Positions 11,591 to 44,273 of a stretch of 64,000 bases of DNA are shown piece by piece. Each line of letters begins with the position of its first letter. Positions within the stretch are counted from its first letter, which is position 1. Location of the stretch: the NCBI RefSeq assembly GCF_004363725.1, contig NZ_SNZF01000003.1, positions 124,001-188,000 of the forward strand. Direction: 5' to 3'. The position numbers and the translations under genes are program-made. The DNA is from Aquamicrobium defluvii (lineage in GTDB: Bacteria; Pseudomonadota; Alphaproteobacteria; Rhizobiales; Rhizobiaceae). The notes beneath the pieces are model-generated. The model was not told where the DNA came from, made no database searches, and saw only the letters and a program-made list of their open reading frames with translations.

Positions 11591-11754
11591 GGGACTCCCT
11601 GGTTCTTGGCGGCGTCCGGATCGCGGCGGGCTTAGGTGCCCCGGATCGGACCTGATTTTCTGGTAAAGCATCGGGTGGTCCGCAAGCCGGATTCCGCCTG
11701 GGGAACCGATGCTGGAATGGCCGGCTTATAAAGAAATCGGCGCAATTCGTCCAG

Positions 11755-31384: not shown

Positions 31385-32047
31385 ATGGCCGCCCACAAGA
31401 TGGCACGACCGGTTTCCGGCGAAATCATGACCGCCCCGCGGGAACAGACCGACGGGAGCATTTTTTGCGCCTCTGCTGCGTGCGCGGACGATATCGTCGA
31501 CGCCGACTATGTCACGCTCGGCACTGCTTCGGATATCCGCCCGGCGCGCGAAGACGCGGCAGACGTCAGGGCGAAGACCGGCGCGCCGCAGACGACGGCA
31601 GGCGGCATGGCGATGCTGCGCAGAAGCGAGCCGGTCCGCCCGCAACCCTTTGCCCGGTCCGCAGGTCCTGCCTTCTGGCTGGGCGGATGCGGTGTCGCCG
31701 CCGCCGCATTCTGGATAGCGGGCGGTCACGCCCTGGTGAGCGGCAGCGAGCTTCTCCGGTGGCCTCCCCAATCGGCGCTCAGCATTTCCGCCGTGACCTC
31801 GCACATCGATGATTCGGGAACGCGGGCGCTCCTGTTCGTCGATGGCGAGGCCGGCAATGACGGCACGGCGGCAGCGCAACTGCCGCCGCTGGAAATCCGC
31901 GTTACCGGCGATGATGGCCGTGTCACCCGCTACAGGTTGGGGACATTGGACCGCACATTGGCCCCGGGCGAAAGATTCGCCTTTTCGGGACGCGTCGAGG
32001 TGCCTAGAAACGGGGTGAAATCCGTATCCGTGGTCTTTGCCGGATAA
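31385..32047 (+). CDS. membrane-anchored protein, DUF3426-like C-terminus
   Basis: A 220-residue protein with a disordered N-terminal half, one transmembrane helix (about 97-118, FWLGGCGVAAAAFWIAGGHAL) and a C-terminal domain (LSISAVTSHIDDSG..LLFVDGEAGN, LEIRVTGDDGRVTRYRLG) that resembles the beta-sandwich of DUF3426/zinc-ribbon proteins. In related genomes the gene between ftsE and hpt has an N-terminal MJ0042 zinc ribbon; here the CxxC pattern is not evident. GGGGA precedes the ATG at 31385. Function unknown. Confidence 0.6.
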   Translation: MAAHKMARPVSGEIMTAPREQTDGSIFCASAACADDIVDADYVTLGTASDIRPAREDAADVRAKTGAPQTTAGGMAMLRRSEPVRPQPFARSAGPAFWLGGCGVAAAAFWIAGGHALVSGSELLRWPPQSALSISAVTSHIDDSGTRALLFVDGEAGNDGTAAAQLPPLEIRVTGDDGRVTRYRLGTLDRTLAPGERFAFSGRVEVPRNGVKSVSVVFAG

Positions 32048-32095
32048 AGCACCTCCCCCGAAAGCGGAAACCGGTTTCGGGATGGCGAGATGCGA
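32045..32095. repeat. palindromic repeat, divergent copy (F)
   Basis: Begins at the TAA stop of the preceding gene (TAAAGCACC). It contains CCCGAAA (32057-32063) and TTTCGGG (32075-32081) as inverted arms around GCGGAAACCGG, and ends near GAGATGC. Related in its core to the copy at 42260, but the least certain member. Confidence 0.45.
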
Positions 32096-32140
32096 AAAAC
32101 GAACTGAAGCCAGAGAGATTCCAGCGGGAGTATCGCCAAA

Positions 32141-32683
32141 ATGCCAATCGTGCGCGGCAAGGACATCGAAGTCCTGTTTTCAGCCTCGGCGATCGCCCGC
32201 CGCAATCTGGAACTGGCCAAGGAGATCGCCGGCCGCGAATATCACGACCTGCTGGTCATCTCGGTGCTGAAGGGCTCGTTCATCTTCGCCGCCGACCTGA
32301 TCCGGGCCATGCACGATGCAGGGCTTGCCCCGGAGGTGGAGTTCATCTTCATCTCCTCCTACGGCGCCGGCACGGAGAGCGGCGAGGTCAGGGTGCTGCG
32401 CGACATCGACAACGAGGTTGCGGGCCGTGACGTGCTGCTGATCGACGACATTCTGGAATCGGGCAAGACATTGCAGTTCGCCCGTAATCTCATGCTTTCG
32501 CGCGGCGCGAAAAGCTGCTCGCTGGCGGTGCTGCTCGACAAGCGCATGCGCCGCAAGACCGACCTCGAAGCGGACTATGTGGGTTTCGACTGCCCCGACC
32601 ATTTCGTCGTGGGTTACGGCATGGATGTGGGTCACGCCTTCCGCGAACTGCCCTTCGTCGGCATCGTCAAGGGCGATGCCTAG
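32141..32683 (+). CDS. hpt: hypoxanthine phosphoribosyltransferase
   Basis: A 180-residue purine salvage enzyme that converts hypoxanthine (and often guanine) plus PRPP to the nucleotide. The PRPP motif VLLIDDILESGKTL is intact, as are the ISVLKGSFIF and FISSYG segments of the active site and the C-terminal DFVVGYGMD-like sequence (HFVVGYGMDVGHAFRELPFVG). Its stop codon TAG is the first three bases of a palindromic repeat. Confidence 0.96.
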   Translation: MPIVRGKDIEVLFSASAIARRNLELAKEIAGREYHDLLVISVLKGSFIFAADLIRAMHDAGLAPEVEFIFISSYGAGTESGEVRVLRDIDNEVAGRDVLLIDDILESGKTLQFARNLMLSRGAKSCSLAVLLDKRMRRKTDLEADYVGFDCPDHFVVGYGMDVGHAFRELPFVGIVKGDA

Positions 32684-32733
32684 AGCATTTGCAGCCGGAC
32701 GGAATCGTCCGGCGTAGCACAAATGCGGCCAGA
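32681..32733. repeat. TAGAGCAT palindromic repeat, copy B
   Basis: Starts with the TAG stop of hpt. GCATTTG pairs with CAAATGC and, inside, GCCGGACG pairs with CGTCCGGC around GAAT. It is nearly identical to copy C, which lies inverted on the far side of the response-regulator gene. Confidence 0.8.
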
Positions 32734-33301: not shown

Positions 33302-33352
33302 CAGCCGCATTTGGCAACGCCGGACGATTCGGTCCGGCTGCAAAATGCTCTA
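33302..33352. repeat. TAGAGCAT palindromic repeat, copy C (inverted)
   Basis: Read on the minus strand it begins TAGAGCATTTTGC with the TAG stop of the TIGR02302 gene (33352-33350). It has GCCGGAC/GTCCGGC arms around CGAATC and outer GCATTT/AAATGC arms. It matches copy B along about 50 bases in opposite orientation. Confidence 0.8.
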
Positions 33353-39813: not shown

Positions 39814-39879
39814 ATTCGCCCCATACTTCCGATCACGGAACTGAACTCCATTCGGTCAACGATGTATCGGGAGATGACG

Positions 39880-41187
39880 ATGAAGATTCTTGGTATCGCA
39901 GCAGGTTTTGCTACCGCACTCACCCTCTGTTCCTCGGTCTCGGCTCTCGCCGCCACCCAGATCAGCTGGTGGCACGCCATGACCGGCGCCAATGCCGAAG
40001 TGGTGGAAAAGATCGCCGGCGATTTCAACGCCAGCCAGAGCGACTATGAGGTCGTCCCGGTCTTCAAGGGCACCTATCCCGAAACGCTGAACGCCGGCAT
40101 CGCCGCCTTCCGCGCCGGTCAGGCCCCCGACATCATCCAGGTCTTCGACGTCGGCACCGGCGTCATGATGGCCGCCGAGGGCGCGATCCGTCCGGTCGCC
40201 GAGGTTCTGGAAGGCGCCGGGCTGAAATTCGACAAGAGCCAGTATCTGCCCGGCATCGTCGCCTATTATTCAAAGCCCGACGGCACCATGCTGTCCTTCC
40301 CCTACAATTCGTCCTCGCCGATCCTCTACTACAACAAGGATGTGTTCGAGAAAGCCGGCCTCGACGTGAACAACCCGCCCAGGACATGGGGCGAGGTTTT
40401 CGAGGCCGCGAAGAAGATCAAGACCAGCGGCGCCGCTGCCTGCGGCTACACCTCGACCTGGCTCACCTGGATCCATCTCGAGAACTTCGCCGCATGGAAC
40501 AACATCTCCTACGGCACCAACGAGAACGGCCTTGCCGGCGGCGATGTCGAACTGAAGATCAACGCGCCGCTCTACGTCGACCACTTCCAGGCGATCGCCG
40601 ATCTGGCAAAGGATGGCACCTTCAAATATGGCGGCCGCACCTCGGAAGCCAAGCAGCTCTTCCTCGCCGGCGAATGCGGCATCCTCACCGAATCGTCGGG
40701 CGGCCTCGGCGACATCGTCAAGTCGGGCATGAACTACGGCATCGGCCAACTGCCCTATGACGAGAACGGTGTGGGCCCGCAGAACACCACGCCCGGCGGC
40801 GCCAGCCTGTGGGTGATGGCCGGCAAGTCCGACGAGCAGTACAAGGGCGTTGCCGCCTTCTTCAACTATCTGTCCCAGACCGACGTGCAGCAGTTCCTGC
40901 ATGAGCAGTCCGGCTACCTGCCGGTGACGCTGGCCGCCTATGAGGCGACCAAGGGTTCGGACTTCTACGAGAAGAACCCCGGCCGCGAGACGCCGATCCT
41001 GCAGATGATGGGCAAGGCGCCGACCGAGAACTCCAAGGGCGTGCGCCTCGCCAACCTGCCGCAGGTGCGCGACATCCAGAACGAGGAGTTCGAAAAGATG
41101 CTGGCCGGCCAGCAGACCGCCCAGCAGGCGCTCGATGCAGCCGTGCAGCGCGGCAACGCCGCGATCAAGGATGCGATCGGCAACTAG
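39880..41187 (+). CDS. ugpB: sn-glycerol-3-phosphate ABC transporter, substrate-binding protein
   Basis: A 435-residue periplasmic binding protein (E. coli UgpB is 438). A signal peptide of about 24 residues ends at LAA before TQISWWHAMTG. The UgpB ligand-region sequences SWWHAM and YPETLNAGIAAFRAGQAPDI are present. It binds sn-glycerol-3-phosphate and glycerophosphodiesters. The ATG at 39880 is preferred, with GGGAG upstream, over one two codons earlier. A stable hairpin separates it from ugpA. Confidence 0.95.
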   Translation: MKILGIAAGFATALTLCSSVSALAATQISWWHAMTGANAEVVEKIAGDFNASQSDYEVVPVFKGTYPETLNAGIAAFRAGQAPDIIQVFDVGTGVMMAAEGAIRPVAEVLEGAGLKFDKSQYLPGIVAYYSKPDGTMLSFPYNSSSPILYYNKDVFEKAGLDVNNPPRTWGEVFEAAKKIKTSGAAACGYTSTWLTWIHLENFAAWNNISYGTNENGLAGGDVELKINAPLYVDHFQAIADLAKDGTFKYGGRTSEAKQLFLAGECGILTESSGGLGDIVKSGMNYGIGQLPYDENGVGPQNTTPGGASLWVMAGKSDEQYKGVAAFFNYLSQTDVQQFLHEQSGYLPVTLAAYEATKGSDFYEKNPGRETPILQMMGKAPTENSKGVRLANLPQVRDIQNEEFEKMLAGQQTAQQALDAAVQRGNAAIKDAIGN

Positions 41188-41208
41188 GCCCTCGTATGAA
41201 TACCGATC

Positions 41209-41236
41209 AGGGGCGGCATTCCTTGCCGCCCCTTTC
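41209..41236 (+). terminator. intercistronic hairpin between ugpB and ugpA
   Basis: AGGGGCGGCA (41209-41218) pairs perfectly with TGCCGCCCCT (41224-41233), followed by a short T-run. Twenty-one bases after the ugpB stop and 142 before ugpA. A partial terminator or 3' stabiliser here would give more binding protein than permease. Confidence 0.65.
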
Positions 41237-41377
41237 CGCCATCCATGCCATGCTTCCTTCCACGGCCGGCGGCAGGCACGACGGCACGAAATTCTGCATT
41301 TGCGGCGGCGCGCGTCCGGCCACTGCTGAACCGATGTCTGGAAACGGGGACGCCAGGGCTGGAGGAGAGGCCATCGC

Positions 41378-42262
41378 ATGACGCCACGCGTCGTTTTTCC
41401 AAACCGCATCCTGCCCTATCTGCTGCTGGCTCCCCAGCTCGCCATCACGCTGGTGTTCTTCTATCTGCCGGCGGTACAGGCGCTCTACCAGTCCATGCTG
41501 CGCGAGGACCCCTTCGGCCTCAGGTCCCGTTTCGTGTGGTTCGCCAATTTCAGGAAGGTGCTGGCAGATCCCGCCTATCTGAACGCGCTCCACGTCACCG
41601 TCGTCTTTTCCGTGGCGACCGCCGTCGTCGCCATGGGGGTGGCCCTGCTTCTGGCGGTGATGGCCGACAAGGTGGTGCGCAGCCGCGGCCTTTACCGCAC
41701 CCTGCTGATCTGGCCCTATGCGGTGGCGCCGGCCATTGCGGGCATGCTGTTCCTGTTCATGTTCAACCCCTCCATCGGCACGCTGGCCGTGCTGCTGCGC
41801 AAGGCCGGCATAGCGTGGGACCCGCTGCTCAATTCGACCGATGCCATGGTGCTTGTGGTGACGGCTGCCGCCTGGAAGCAGATCAGCTACAATTTCCTGT
41901 TCTTCGTCGCCGGCCTTCAGGCGATCCCGAAAAGCCTGATCGAGGCGGCAGCCATCGACGGCGCGAGGGAGGTGAAGCGCTTCTGGACCATCGTCTTCCC
42001 GCTGCTGGCGCCAACGACCTTCTTCCTGCTGGTCATCAACACCACCTATGCCTTCTTCGATACCTTCGGCATCATCCACGCGGTGACCGGCGGCGGCCCG
42101 GGCAAGGCGACGGAAACGCTGGTCTACAAGGTCTACAATGACGGCTTCGTCAACCTGATCCTTGGCGAATCCGCCGCGCAATCGGTGATCCTGATGATCA
42201 TCGTCATCGCGCTCACCGCCATCCAGTTCCGCTACGTGGAAAGGAAGGTGCACTATGGCTAG
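41378..42262 (+). CDS. ugpA: sn-glycerol-3-phosphate ABC transporter, permease
   Basis: A 294-residue permease with six transmembrane helices. The cytoplasmic EAA loop ([24 protein letters not shown]) contacts UgpC. Length equals E. coli UgpA (295). The N-terminal [20 protein letters not shown] is typical. Its TAG stop is the first three bases of a palindromic repeat and overlaps the ugpE start (ATGGCTAG). Confidence 0.95.
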
Positions 42263-43205
42263 AGCATCGGACCGAAAAGTGGCATCCGGTTTTCGGAAAG
42301 ATCCGGTGCTCCAACAAAAAAGCCCTAAAACTCCGGCCAGCGGGCATGACAAGCTGATGATCGGTCAGTCGTCGGCCGGCATCTGGCTCGCCCACGCCAT
42401 CCTCATCCTCGGCGTGGTCATCGTCGCCTTTCCGATCTACTACACCTTCGTCGCCTCCACCCATTCGCTGCAGACGATCCTGCGCCCGCCGCTGCCGCTG
42501 CTGCCGGGGCCGGAATTCTGGACCAATTATTCGCAGGCGCTGACCGGCGGCGGCACCCGTATCGGCGGCGTCGGTGTCGTCACCCTGCTCGTCAACACCA
42601 CCGTGATGGCGCTGGGCATCGCCATCGGCAAGATCGTCATCTCGATCCTGTCGGCCTATGCCATCGTGTTCTTCCGCTTTCCGTTCCGGATGACATTCTT
42701 CTGGGTCATCTTCATCACCCTGATGCTGCCCGTCGAGGTGCGCATCCTGCCGACCTACAAGGTGATGGTCGATCTCGGCCTCATCGACACCTATGCCGGG
42801 CTGATCGTGCCGCTGATCGCCTCGGCGACGGCAACGCTTCTGTTCAGGCAGTTCTTCATGACCATTCCGGGCGAGCTGGTCGAGGCCGCGCGCGTCGACG
42901 GCGCGGGGCCGTGGCGCTTCTTCTTCGATATCCTGCTGCCGCTGTCGCGCACCAACATCGCGGCGCTGTTCGTCATCCTCTTCATCTACGGATGGACGCA
43001 ATATCTGTGGCCGCTTCTGGTCACCAACAGCAACGACATGAACACCATCGTCATCGCGCTGCGCAAGATGATCTCCTTTGCCGATGCCGACACCCAGTGG
43101 CACCTCGTCATGGTGACGTCGATCCTCGCCATCATACCGCCGATCGTGGTGGTGGTGGCCATGCAACGGTGGTTCGTCAAGGGCCTGGTCGAGTCGGAGA
43201 AATAG
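42255..43205 (+). CDS. ugpE: sn-glycerol-3-phosphate ABC transporter, permease, with repeat-encoded N-terminal extension
   Basis: A 316-residue permease whose last 282 residues (from [19 protein letters not shown]) match the usual UgpE length (281 in E. coli). They carry six helices and an [21 protein letters not shown] coupling loop. The start at 42255 has a strong ribosome site (AAGGAAGG) inside ugpA. The first 34 residues are not UgpE-like: they are translated from a TAGAGCAT palindromic repeat and adjoining DNA. If translation starts instead at 42357, the protein is of normal length, but I see no ribosome site there. Confidence 0.9.
42260..42312. repeat. TAGAGCAT palindromic repeat, copy D, inside ugpE
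   Basis: TAGAGCATCGGACCGAAAA at the left and TTTTCGG then TCCGGTGCTCC at the right form an imperfect hairpin. It starts with the ugpA stop TAG and is read in frame as residues 3-19 or so of UgpE. The sequence closely resembles a very common rhizobial intergenic palindrome. Confidence 0.75.
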
Positions 43206-43208
43206 AAT

Positions 43209-44273
43209 ATGGCGACAGTCGATCTCAACGATGTGCGCAAGGTGTATGCCGGCGGTTTCGAGGCGGTAAAGGGCGTCTCGATCGCCATTCCCGACAAGGC
43301 GCTGTGCGTTCTGGTCGGACCCTCGGGCTGCGGCAAGTCCACGCTGCTGCGCATGATCGCCGGGCTGGAGACCATCTCGTCCGGCACGATCTCCATCGAT
43401 GGCAAGGTCGTCAACAATATCGGCCCCACCGACCGCGACATCGCCATGGTGTTCCAGAACTACGCGCTCTATCCGCATATGAGCGTCTACGACAACATGG
43501 CCTACGGCCTGCGCAATCGCGGCACGCCGAAGCCCGAGATCGACAGCCGCGTGCGTGCCACGGCCAAGACCCTCGAGCTCGATCAGCTTCTCGACCGCAA
43601 GCCGCGCCAGCTTTCCGGCGGCCAGCGCCAGCGCGTCGCCATGGGCCGCGCCATCGTGCGCAACCCCAAGGTCTTCCTGTTCGACGAGCCGCTTTCCAAT
43701 CTCGACGCCAAGCTTCGGGGCCAGATGCGTGTCGAGATCAAGAACCTTCAGCGCAATCTGGGCGTCACGTCCGTCTACGTCACCCACGACCAGCTCGAAG
43801 CCATGACGCTGGCCGACATGCTGGTGGTCATGAACGCCGGCGTGATCGAGCAGATCGGCGCGCCGATGGACGTCTACGAAAAACCGGCCTCGACCTTCGT
43901 CGCCGCCTTCATCGGCGCTCCGCCCATGAACCTGATGGCACTGACGCATGGGGCGGACGGCACGGCGACGGTGGCGGGAGGAGCGAAGATCGCCGGCCAC
44001 GTGCCCGAACAGGCAGCGATCCTCGGCCTGCGGCCCGAGGATGCGATCGTCCCGGCGCCCGACGCCACGCAAAAAGGCGCGCTCTCACTGCCGGTGGCGG
44101 TGGAGGCCGTGGAACCTGTCGGGATGGAAAGCTTCCTGCACTGTGCCATCGCAGGCGAGCGCATCGTGGTGCGGGTGCCGGGCCGCAGCATGGTCCAGCC
44201 CGGCGACCGGCTGGAGATCGCAGCCGGCCTCGACCGGCTGCACTTCTTCGACAAGGACGGCAGGCGGGTTTGA
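43209..44273 (+). CDS. ugpC: sn-glycerol-3-phosphate ABC transporter, ATP-binding protein
   Basis: A 354-residue MalK/UgpC-type ATPase: Walker [10 protein letters not shown] (37-45), signature LSGGQRQR, Walker [13 protein letters not shown], and a C-terminal OB-type regulatory region from about 240 on ([10 protein letters not shown]). Last gene of ugpBAEC, three bases after ugpE. In E. coli the C-terminal domain mediates inhibition by the PhoU/PII-like systems; whether this happens here is open. Confidence 0.95.

Follow-up and report, generated by a model that had tools for sequence, protein, structure and literature searches.

In Aquamicrobium defluvii, one palindromic half of a RIME1-like repeat has, with good probability, inserted at the stop codon of ugpA, adding 20 codons to a ugpE gene that was already extended. 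The position, length and frame of this insertion are established, along with its phylogeny and stop-codon pattern. Mobility of the element at or beside the T of the stop codon would account for its arrival, and its effect on transport would be near-neutral. The locus lies in a window of 64,000 nucleotides, the whole stretch of DNA analyzed, which belongs to a genome of 4.52 Mb in 91 contigs (G000).

The ugpA-ugpE junction and its repeat

The genes ugpB, ugpA, ugpE and ugpC are consecutive on the forward strand, and each passes the curated NCBIfam cut-off: the upstream neighbor ugpB, for a substrate-binding protein (39862-41187), with 513 bits against a cut-off of 411, ugpA (41378-42262) with 362.5 against 335, ugpE with 379.1 against 297, and the downstream neighbor ugpC, for an ATPase (43209-44273), with 529.4 against 432. 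The most likely start codon of ugpE, ATG 42255-42257, overlaps the end of ugpA (ATGGCTAG); of the 89 distinct junctions compared, 33 open UgpE at this overlapping ATG. A predicted Shine-Dalgarno site for it, AAGGAAGG at 42241-42248, lies within the last ugpA codons and is separated from the ATG by six bases. The inserted element occupies 42260-42319 (60 nt or 20 codons, with edges placed to within a few bases) and opens with the triplet that serves as the ugpA stop, TAG 42260-42262; it represents the left half of a two-palindrome repeat, and model R2 matches 42260-42320 with 74 bits. Folding puts the 5' and 3' arms of the outer hairpin stem at 42262-42271 and 42302-42311. Next come the remainder of an older UgpE extension, common to element-free relatives in the junction comparison (42320-42356), and conserved UgpE (42357-43205; BPD_transp_1), whose inner ATG, at 42357, offers the alternative start. 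The frame is open from 42255 to 43205, giving 316 residues as opposed to 282 from ATG 42357, and the alignment to the NCBIfam UgpE model starts at residue 45 of the long form. The earlier note on this DNA, made from the letters alone, was therefore right to place a repeat between ATG 42255 and the conserved UgpE start, to read the frame as open through it and to see a strong Shine-Dalgarno site ahead of that ATG. Searching 42000-42600 against Rfam gave three matches at E<=1, all far under their gathering scores, and a promoter and terminator scan of 41200-43300 found neither at the element.

The analysis confirms that an interspersed palindromic repeat has a copy at 42260-42319. The palindrome between the two ugpE starts folds at -28.3 kcal/mol, compared with a mean of -13.1 for shuffled sequences (z -5.7; 0 of 200 shuffles as low). 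With a 76-base query, blastn returned 20 places in G000 at E<=10 and 16 at E<0.001, the ugpE copy counted, and a covariance model of the left palindrome gave 72 rows at E<=1, reverse-strand doubles counted. Full copies in G000 are 100-104 nt long with TA ends and two palindromes (13 copies aligned over 104 columns with two paired regions), and five of the 13 retain both TA ends. Terminal inverted repeats of the form TAGAGC...GCTCTA (as in L002 and L003) and TA at both ends give full copies the features of a MITE; the ugpE copy is without the right end and consists of the left palindrome and an A-rich tail. Given the missing right palindrome, the initial insertion may have been larger and trimmed later. 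At E<=1e-6 the element occurs in 18 (G000 counted) of 61 genomes sampled within the order, and the full element was matched in 303 of 72,556 plasmid records, 253 of them from Rhizobium and 34 from Sinorhizobium. Weaker matches to the left-palindrome model lie in the window at 11657-11716 on the reverse strand (23.0 bits) and at 32045-32102 on the forward strand (17.1 bits).

The UgpE extension and its start codon

Among 116 loci inspected, a script located 101 ugpA-ugpE junctions, 89 of them distinct. An ATG that overlaps the ugpA stop in frame with UgpE is present in 33 of the 89 and absent from the other 56. Only two of the 33 extended junctions, those of G000 and G013, contain the element, and the element model found no match in any of the remaining 31, which include Aminobacter anthyllidis, A. 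ciceronei, Mesorhizobium composti, M. denitrificans and Mycoplana dimorpha. As these 31 junctions are extended without the element, the UgpE extension predates the repeat. Element-free junctions of the SGHDKL type have extensions of 11-16 residues, and that of the nearest element-free relative, G084, is 14 residues long, compared with 34 in G000. The overlapping and conserved ATGs are 102 nt apart in G000 and 42 nt apart in G084, a difference of exactly 60 nt with conserved flanks. By this comparison, the putative insertion measures exactly 60 nt and lies inside an existing extension, which it lengthens from 14 to 34 residues. In a tree of ugpE DNA (89 rows), G000 and G013 group with an SH-aLRT of 95 and G084 joins them with 100; the nearest named ugpE to that of G000 is from M. 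composti. When 146 genomes of the genus were scanned, 14 matched at E<=1e-15, and the full 216-base junction was found only in G000 and G013. One insertion on the branch leading to these sisters would explain the distribution.

The earlier note had proposed that a single insertion made both the ugpA stop codon and a new UgpE N-terminus. The bases of the TAG do belong to the edge of the element, and the ugpA stop is TAG in G000 and G013 and TGA in 31 of 31 element-free extended junctions. However, the TGA of G084 and the TAG of G000 occupy the same ugpA codon, and the UgpA C-terminus, ...RKVHYG*, is retained. Since element-free relatives stop with TGA, and G084 at that very codon, UgpA gained no new end. 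Similarly, the repeat lengthens the reading frame of UgpE, but the idea of an N-terminus that is wholly new gives way before the 31 of 89 distinct junctions, that of G084 being the nearest, in which relatives have an extension and no repeat. Long ugpA-ugpE spacers occur in other species (L076, L088, L089, L104 and L109), several with other repeats of the CCCTCCCCCTTG..GGGGAGGG type, and the junction looks like a hot spot for repeats.

Translation likely starts at 42255, where the predicted Shine-Dalgarno site favors it: the anti-Shine-Dalgarno duplex is -14.2 kcal/mol at this ATG compared with -3.4 at ATG 42357. The medians for SGHDKL-type junctions (14 rows, G000 among them) are likewise -14.2 at the overlapping ATG and -3.4 at the inner one, with L010 and L080 omitted as the script had taken a later ATG in both. 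Where the extension is absent, the median is -6.1 for the junction's own ATG (49 rows) and -3.3 for the overlap position (56 rows). If UgpE instead began at 42357, the upstream ATG and the element would form an untranslated leader and the repeat would only seem to be coding. A codon model trained on the window does choose 42357 as the best start, the coding score of the element is negative (-8.2), and the 56 of 89 junctions without an in-frame overlapping ATG begin further in. The open frame through the ugpE copy is itself unsurprising, as 76 of 120 element copies are open in that phase (41 of 50 in G000). A study of REPs also cautions that REPs at the N-termini of ORFs may often be extragenic, with translation starting downstream (PMC3733652). 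Yet the pairing before 42357 is poor even beside that of extension-free junctions at their own ATG, an overlapping ATG with an in-frame extension recurs in the 33 junctions, and the short extension is little changed among G005, G094, G109 and G083, which differ per pair at 1-4 of its 42 nt and at 23-40 of 240 nt in the core that follows. A start at 42357 is accordingly unlikely.

Assuming the start at 42255, the added 20 residues would be mostly hydrophilic and would stand ahead of the first UgpE membrane helix, and the functional effect of the lengthened tail is most likely little. Between G000 and G013, dN is 0.088 and dS 0.219 over the 34-codon extension (dN/dS about 0.40, from few changes), compared with 0.014 and 0.119 in the UgpE core (dN/dS about 0.12); constraint on the extension thus appears to be weak. 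In a predicted structure that is poor as a whole (mean pLDDT 53.7), residues 1-38 are without secondary structure and below 50. It is hardly credible in light of these values, and of the confinement of the element-bearing UgpE to two genomes, that the element-encoded residues have been domesticated for a function in UgpE, even with the frame retained in both G000 and G013 and a basic tail of 8-9 K+R. The hairpin might alternatively have been retained to tune ugpA-ugpE expression, through mRNA processing or the translation of ugpE after ugpA, as its strength, the start of its stem at +8 of ugpE and the long spacers that several species have at this junction, in some cases with other repeats, could suggest. 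This too is very improbable, since the predicted accessibility of the Shine-Dalgarno site is unchanged (0.27, equal to the median of 31 element-free rows), folding around the start is ordinary (-34.4 compared with a median of -30.8 and a lowest value of -36.5), the scan of 41200-43300 found no terminator-like site at the element, and the full junction is matched in only the two sister genomes of the 146 searched.

Siting of the repeat at stop codons

To place the ugpE copy among others of its kind, 120 copies were oriented in six genomes (50 in G000, 20 in G084, 17 in G013, 16 in G005, 11 in G069 and 6 in G094). They were taken from among the upper-ranked rows of the match lists and fall at 107 distinct sites by their upstream 60 nt; the genes around them were called by a purpose-made simple codon model. 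A same-strand gene stops within 150 nt of the element at 65 of the 107 sites, and at 23 of the 65 the stop is the first triplet of the element (offset +3), every other offset occurring at most three times. Per genome, offset +3 accounts for 11 of 24 sites in G000, 5 of 8 in G069, 4 of 11 in G084, 2 of 14 in G005, 1 of 3 in G013 and 0 of 5 in G094. Under a second rule, 35 upstream frames reach the element, and 24 of them do so in the frame that makes the triplet a stop (one third expected, p 2e-5). Selection against read-through could be a partial source of this bias; as it could favor that frame, the frame evidence is kept apart from the evidence of empty sites. The base before the TAG differs among copies and may be c, t, a or g.

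Independent annotation of plasmids agrees with stop-codon siting. In 10 records, representing 9 genes, a CDS stops on the element triplet (L346, L347, L348 with kdpB, L349, L352 and its likely ortholog L407, L353, L408, L413 and L414), and at the right end of the element a minus-strand CDS does so in L350 and L406. The annotated CDS enters or crosses the element in L350 (left side), L409, L410, L411 and L412. In L351, TAA immediately precedes the TAG of the element; the annotation of L416 to L421 has no contact between a stop and the element, and L354, L355 and L415 are records without annotation. As many of the records were picked for a feature under the match, these counts are a check and not a rate. 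In L412 (Allorhizobium ampelinum S4, pAtS4e), a thioesterase CDS spans the whole left palindrome, a C-terminal coding case, and ends on the TAG of an apparent following copy.

Other palindromes in the window also adjoin stop codons. The element at 32681-32726 on the forward strand opens with a TAG that is the stop of a hypoxanthine phosphoribosyltransferase gene (TIGR01203) ending in ...GIVKGDA. On the reverse strand, 33314-33352 repeats the palindrome at 32688 in nearly inverted form (94% complementary), and its TAG at 33350-33352 ends a minus-strand gene whose product terminates in ...YLERLLEAR and is of the TIGR02302 type, although below the cut-off with 100 residues searched. The two palindromes flank a response-regulator-like gene.

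Among the 107 distinct sites, the element lies inside the start of a well-scoring gene only in ugpE and its G013 ortholog. The candidates L159, L203, L209 and L217 were considered as ORFs running through the element and judged doubtful by eye, because other frames compete or the gene probably starts beyond the element. The exceptional position of ugpE follows from the overlap of its start with the ugpA stop, which brings anything inserted there into ugpE.

Sites that are empty in relatives argue for insertion at pre-existing stops, as far as the aligned gene ends can indicate. The leuB gene (TIGR00169, 448.5 bits) has TAA and the element in G000, and in the sister G013 TAA stands at the same codon without the element. 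In 27 of 28 further relatives leuB stops one codon earlier (TGA in 18, TAA in 6 and TAG in 3), L268 being different; G111 (L269), one of the 27, also bears an element of this kind. In G012 (L281), leuB stops on TAGAGCAGTTCACC..GCTCTAA, apparently another palindromic element opening with a stop codon. An aminotransferase-like gene (L146), which scores under every NCBIfam cut-off, has TAG and the element in G000 and G013, and among the 30 loci compared from 71 matched genomes, all 28 further relatives have their stop at that codon or at the next one (TAG 14, TAA 13, TGA 1). The L168 gene has TAA and the element in both sisters, and the five relatives that align on both sides all share this stop position, with TGA in G006, G111, G084 and G069 and TAA in G005; the ugpA pattern resembles this one. 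At the L168 stop in G084 (L423), there is a different palindrome-like sequence that begins TGAAGC, compared with the TAA-type element of G000 and G013. These sites would be read most simply as insertions at the T of the stop codon or immediately behind it. A plain TA target with duplication fits the leuB sister site, but the empty stops are TGA at ugpA and in four of the five L168 relatives; with TGA in 31 of 31 element-free extended junctions, such a target is not demonstrated at ugpA.

At ugpE, the events were probably as follows. One palindromic half of a RIME1-like repeat would have entered the ugpA stop in an ancestor shared by G000 and G013. Such elements are often placed with their first triplet, TAG or TAA, as the stop of the upstream gene, whose end, where element-free relatives are comparable, falls at the same codon or within one. 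Before the insertion, the ugpE start would already have lain on the ugpA stop (ATGGCTGA) and the UgpE extension would have been present. Because the start overlapped the stop, the insertion had to land at ugpE codons 2-3, and its length of 60 nt and open frame would have left ugpE readable with a gain of 20 residues.

Relation to known repeats

The family fits a RIME1-like element by its size, two palindromes and host range, compared with its description and not with a sequence. RIME1, the Rhizobium-specific intergenic mosaic element, was reportedly described by Osteras et al. in 1995 as about 108 bp long with two large palindromes, and is said to occur in many copies across Rhizobium, Sinorhizobium and relatives. 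Full copies in G000 are likewise 100-104 nt with two palindromes, and relatives of the element are on plasmids of Rhizobium and Sinorhizobium; the ugpE copy differs in having the left palindrome only and in not being intergenic. A RIME1 copy is also said to lie between chvI and chvG, near pckA. Of the 79 genomes with a pckA match, 20 were sampled upstream of that gene, one stretch each, and R1 matched once, in L391, the one stretch in which a ChvI/ChvG-like pair was looked up. There (G268), a full element at 2036-2138 lies upstream of pckA, beyond the ChvI/ChvG-like pair, and adjoins adenosylhomocysteinase.

The likeness to Rickettsia coding repeats seen in the earlier note holds for the outcome, a repeat in frame within UgpE, and goes no further, ugpE being the sole clear case in 107 sites. 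RPEs are described in two reports as coding palindromic repeats of about 150 bp found in many ORFs (PMC2229807, PMC10969869). As with RPEs, a palindromic repeat lies in frame within a conserved gene and adds residues without breaking it. Unlike RPEs, frequent in-frame insertion is not a feature of the rhizobial repeat, for which ugpE is the only clear N-terminal case among the 107 distinct sites, and its size is different, with 60 nt inserted and full copies of 100-104 nt. The in-frame position in ugpE seems to be a side effect of siting at a stop codon.

There are precedents for repeats as a source of stop codons. In Streptococcus pneumoniae, 58 CDSs overlap BOX and the repeat encodes the stop in 36, strong evidence of truncation being absent (PMC3049150). 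By description and not by sequence, the rhizobial repeat resembles BOX in supplying a stop codon; it differs at ugpA-ugpE, where the start of the next gene overlaps that stop. The GTAG REPs, of 20-40 bp, have termini that often give TAG to flanking ORFs, and some lie within ORFs (PMC3733652); the rhizobial copies do not have the GTAG tag, as the base before their TAG varies. In the same bacterial order, the Brucella repeats Bru-RS1 and Bru-RS2 are palindromic and of similar size (103 and 106 bp; PMC10800456), a likeness of description only. We found no report in the open-licence literature in which RIME- or Bru-RS-like elements code for protein or provide a stop codon.

Stop-codon repeats and coding palindromes are thus already in print, and the ugpE case is another instance. 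With a near element-free relative and an insertion of exactly 60 nt, it provides a polarised example of how a palindromic repeat enters the frame of a conserved protein without breaking it. For annotation it carries a caution, as the TAG or TAA ending many rhizobial genes is part of a repeat. We suggest only tentatively, as something that we regard as rather doubtful, that rhizobial palindromic repeats, through their siting at stop codons, systematically give rise to new N-termini at overlapping genes; if true, insertions of suitable length at overlapped stops would add repeat-encoded residues, ugpE would to our knowledge be the first such case, and more cases would be expected at overlapping pairs. 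Gene overlap is the link between stop-supplying and coding repeats, which are separate in print, and it predicts where coding repeats occur.
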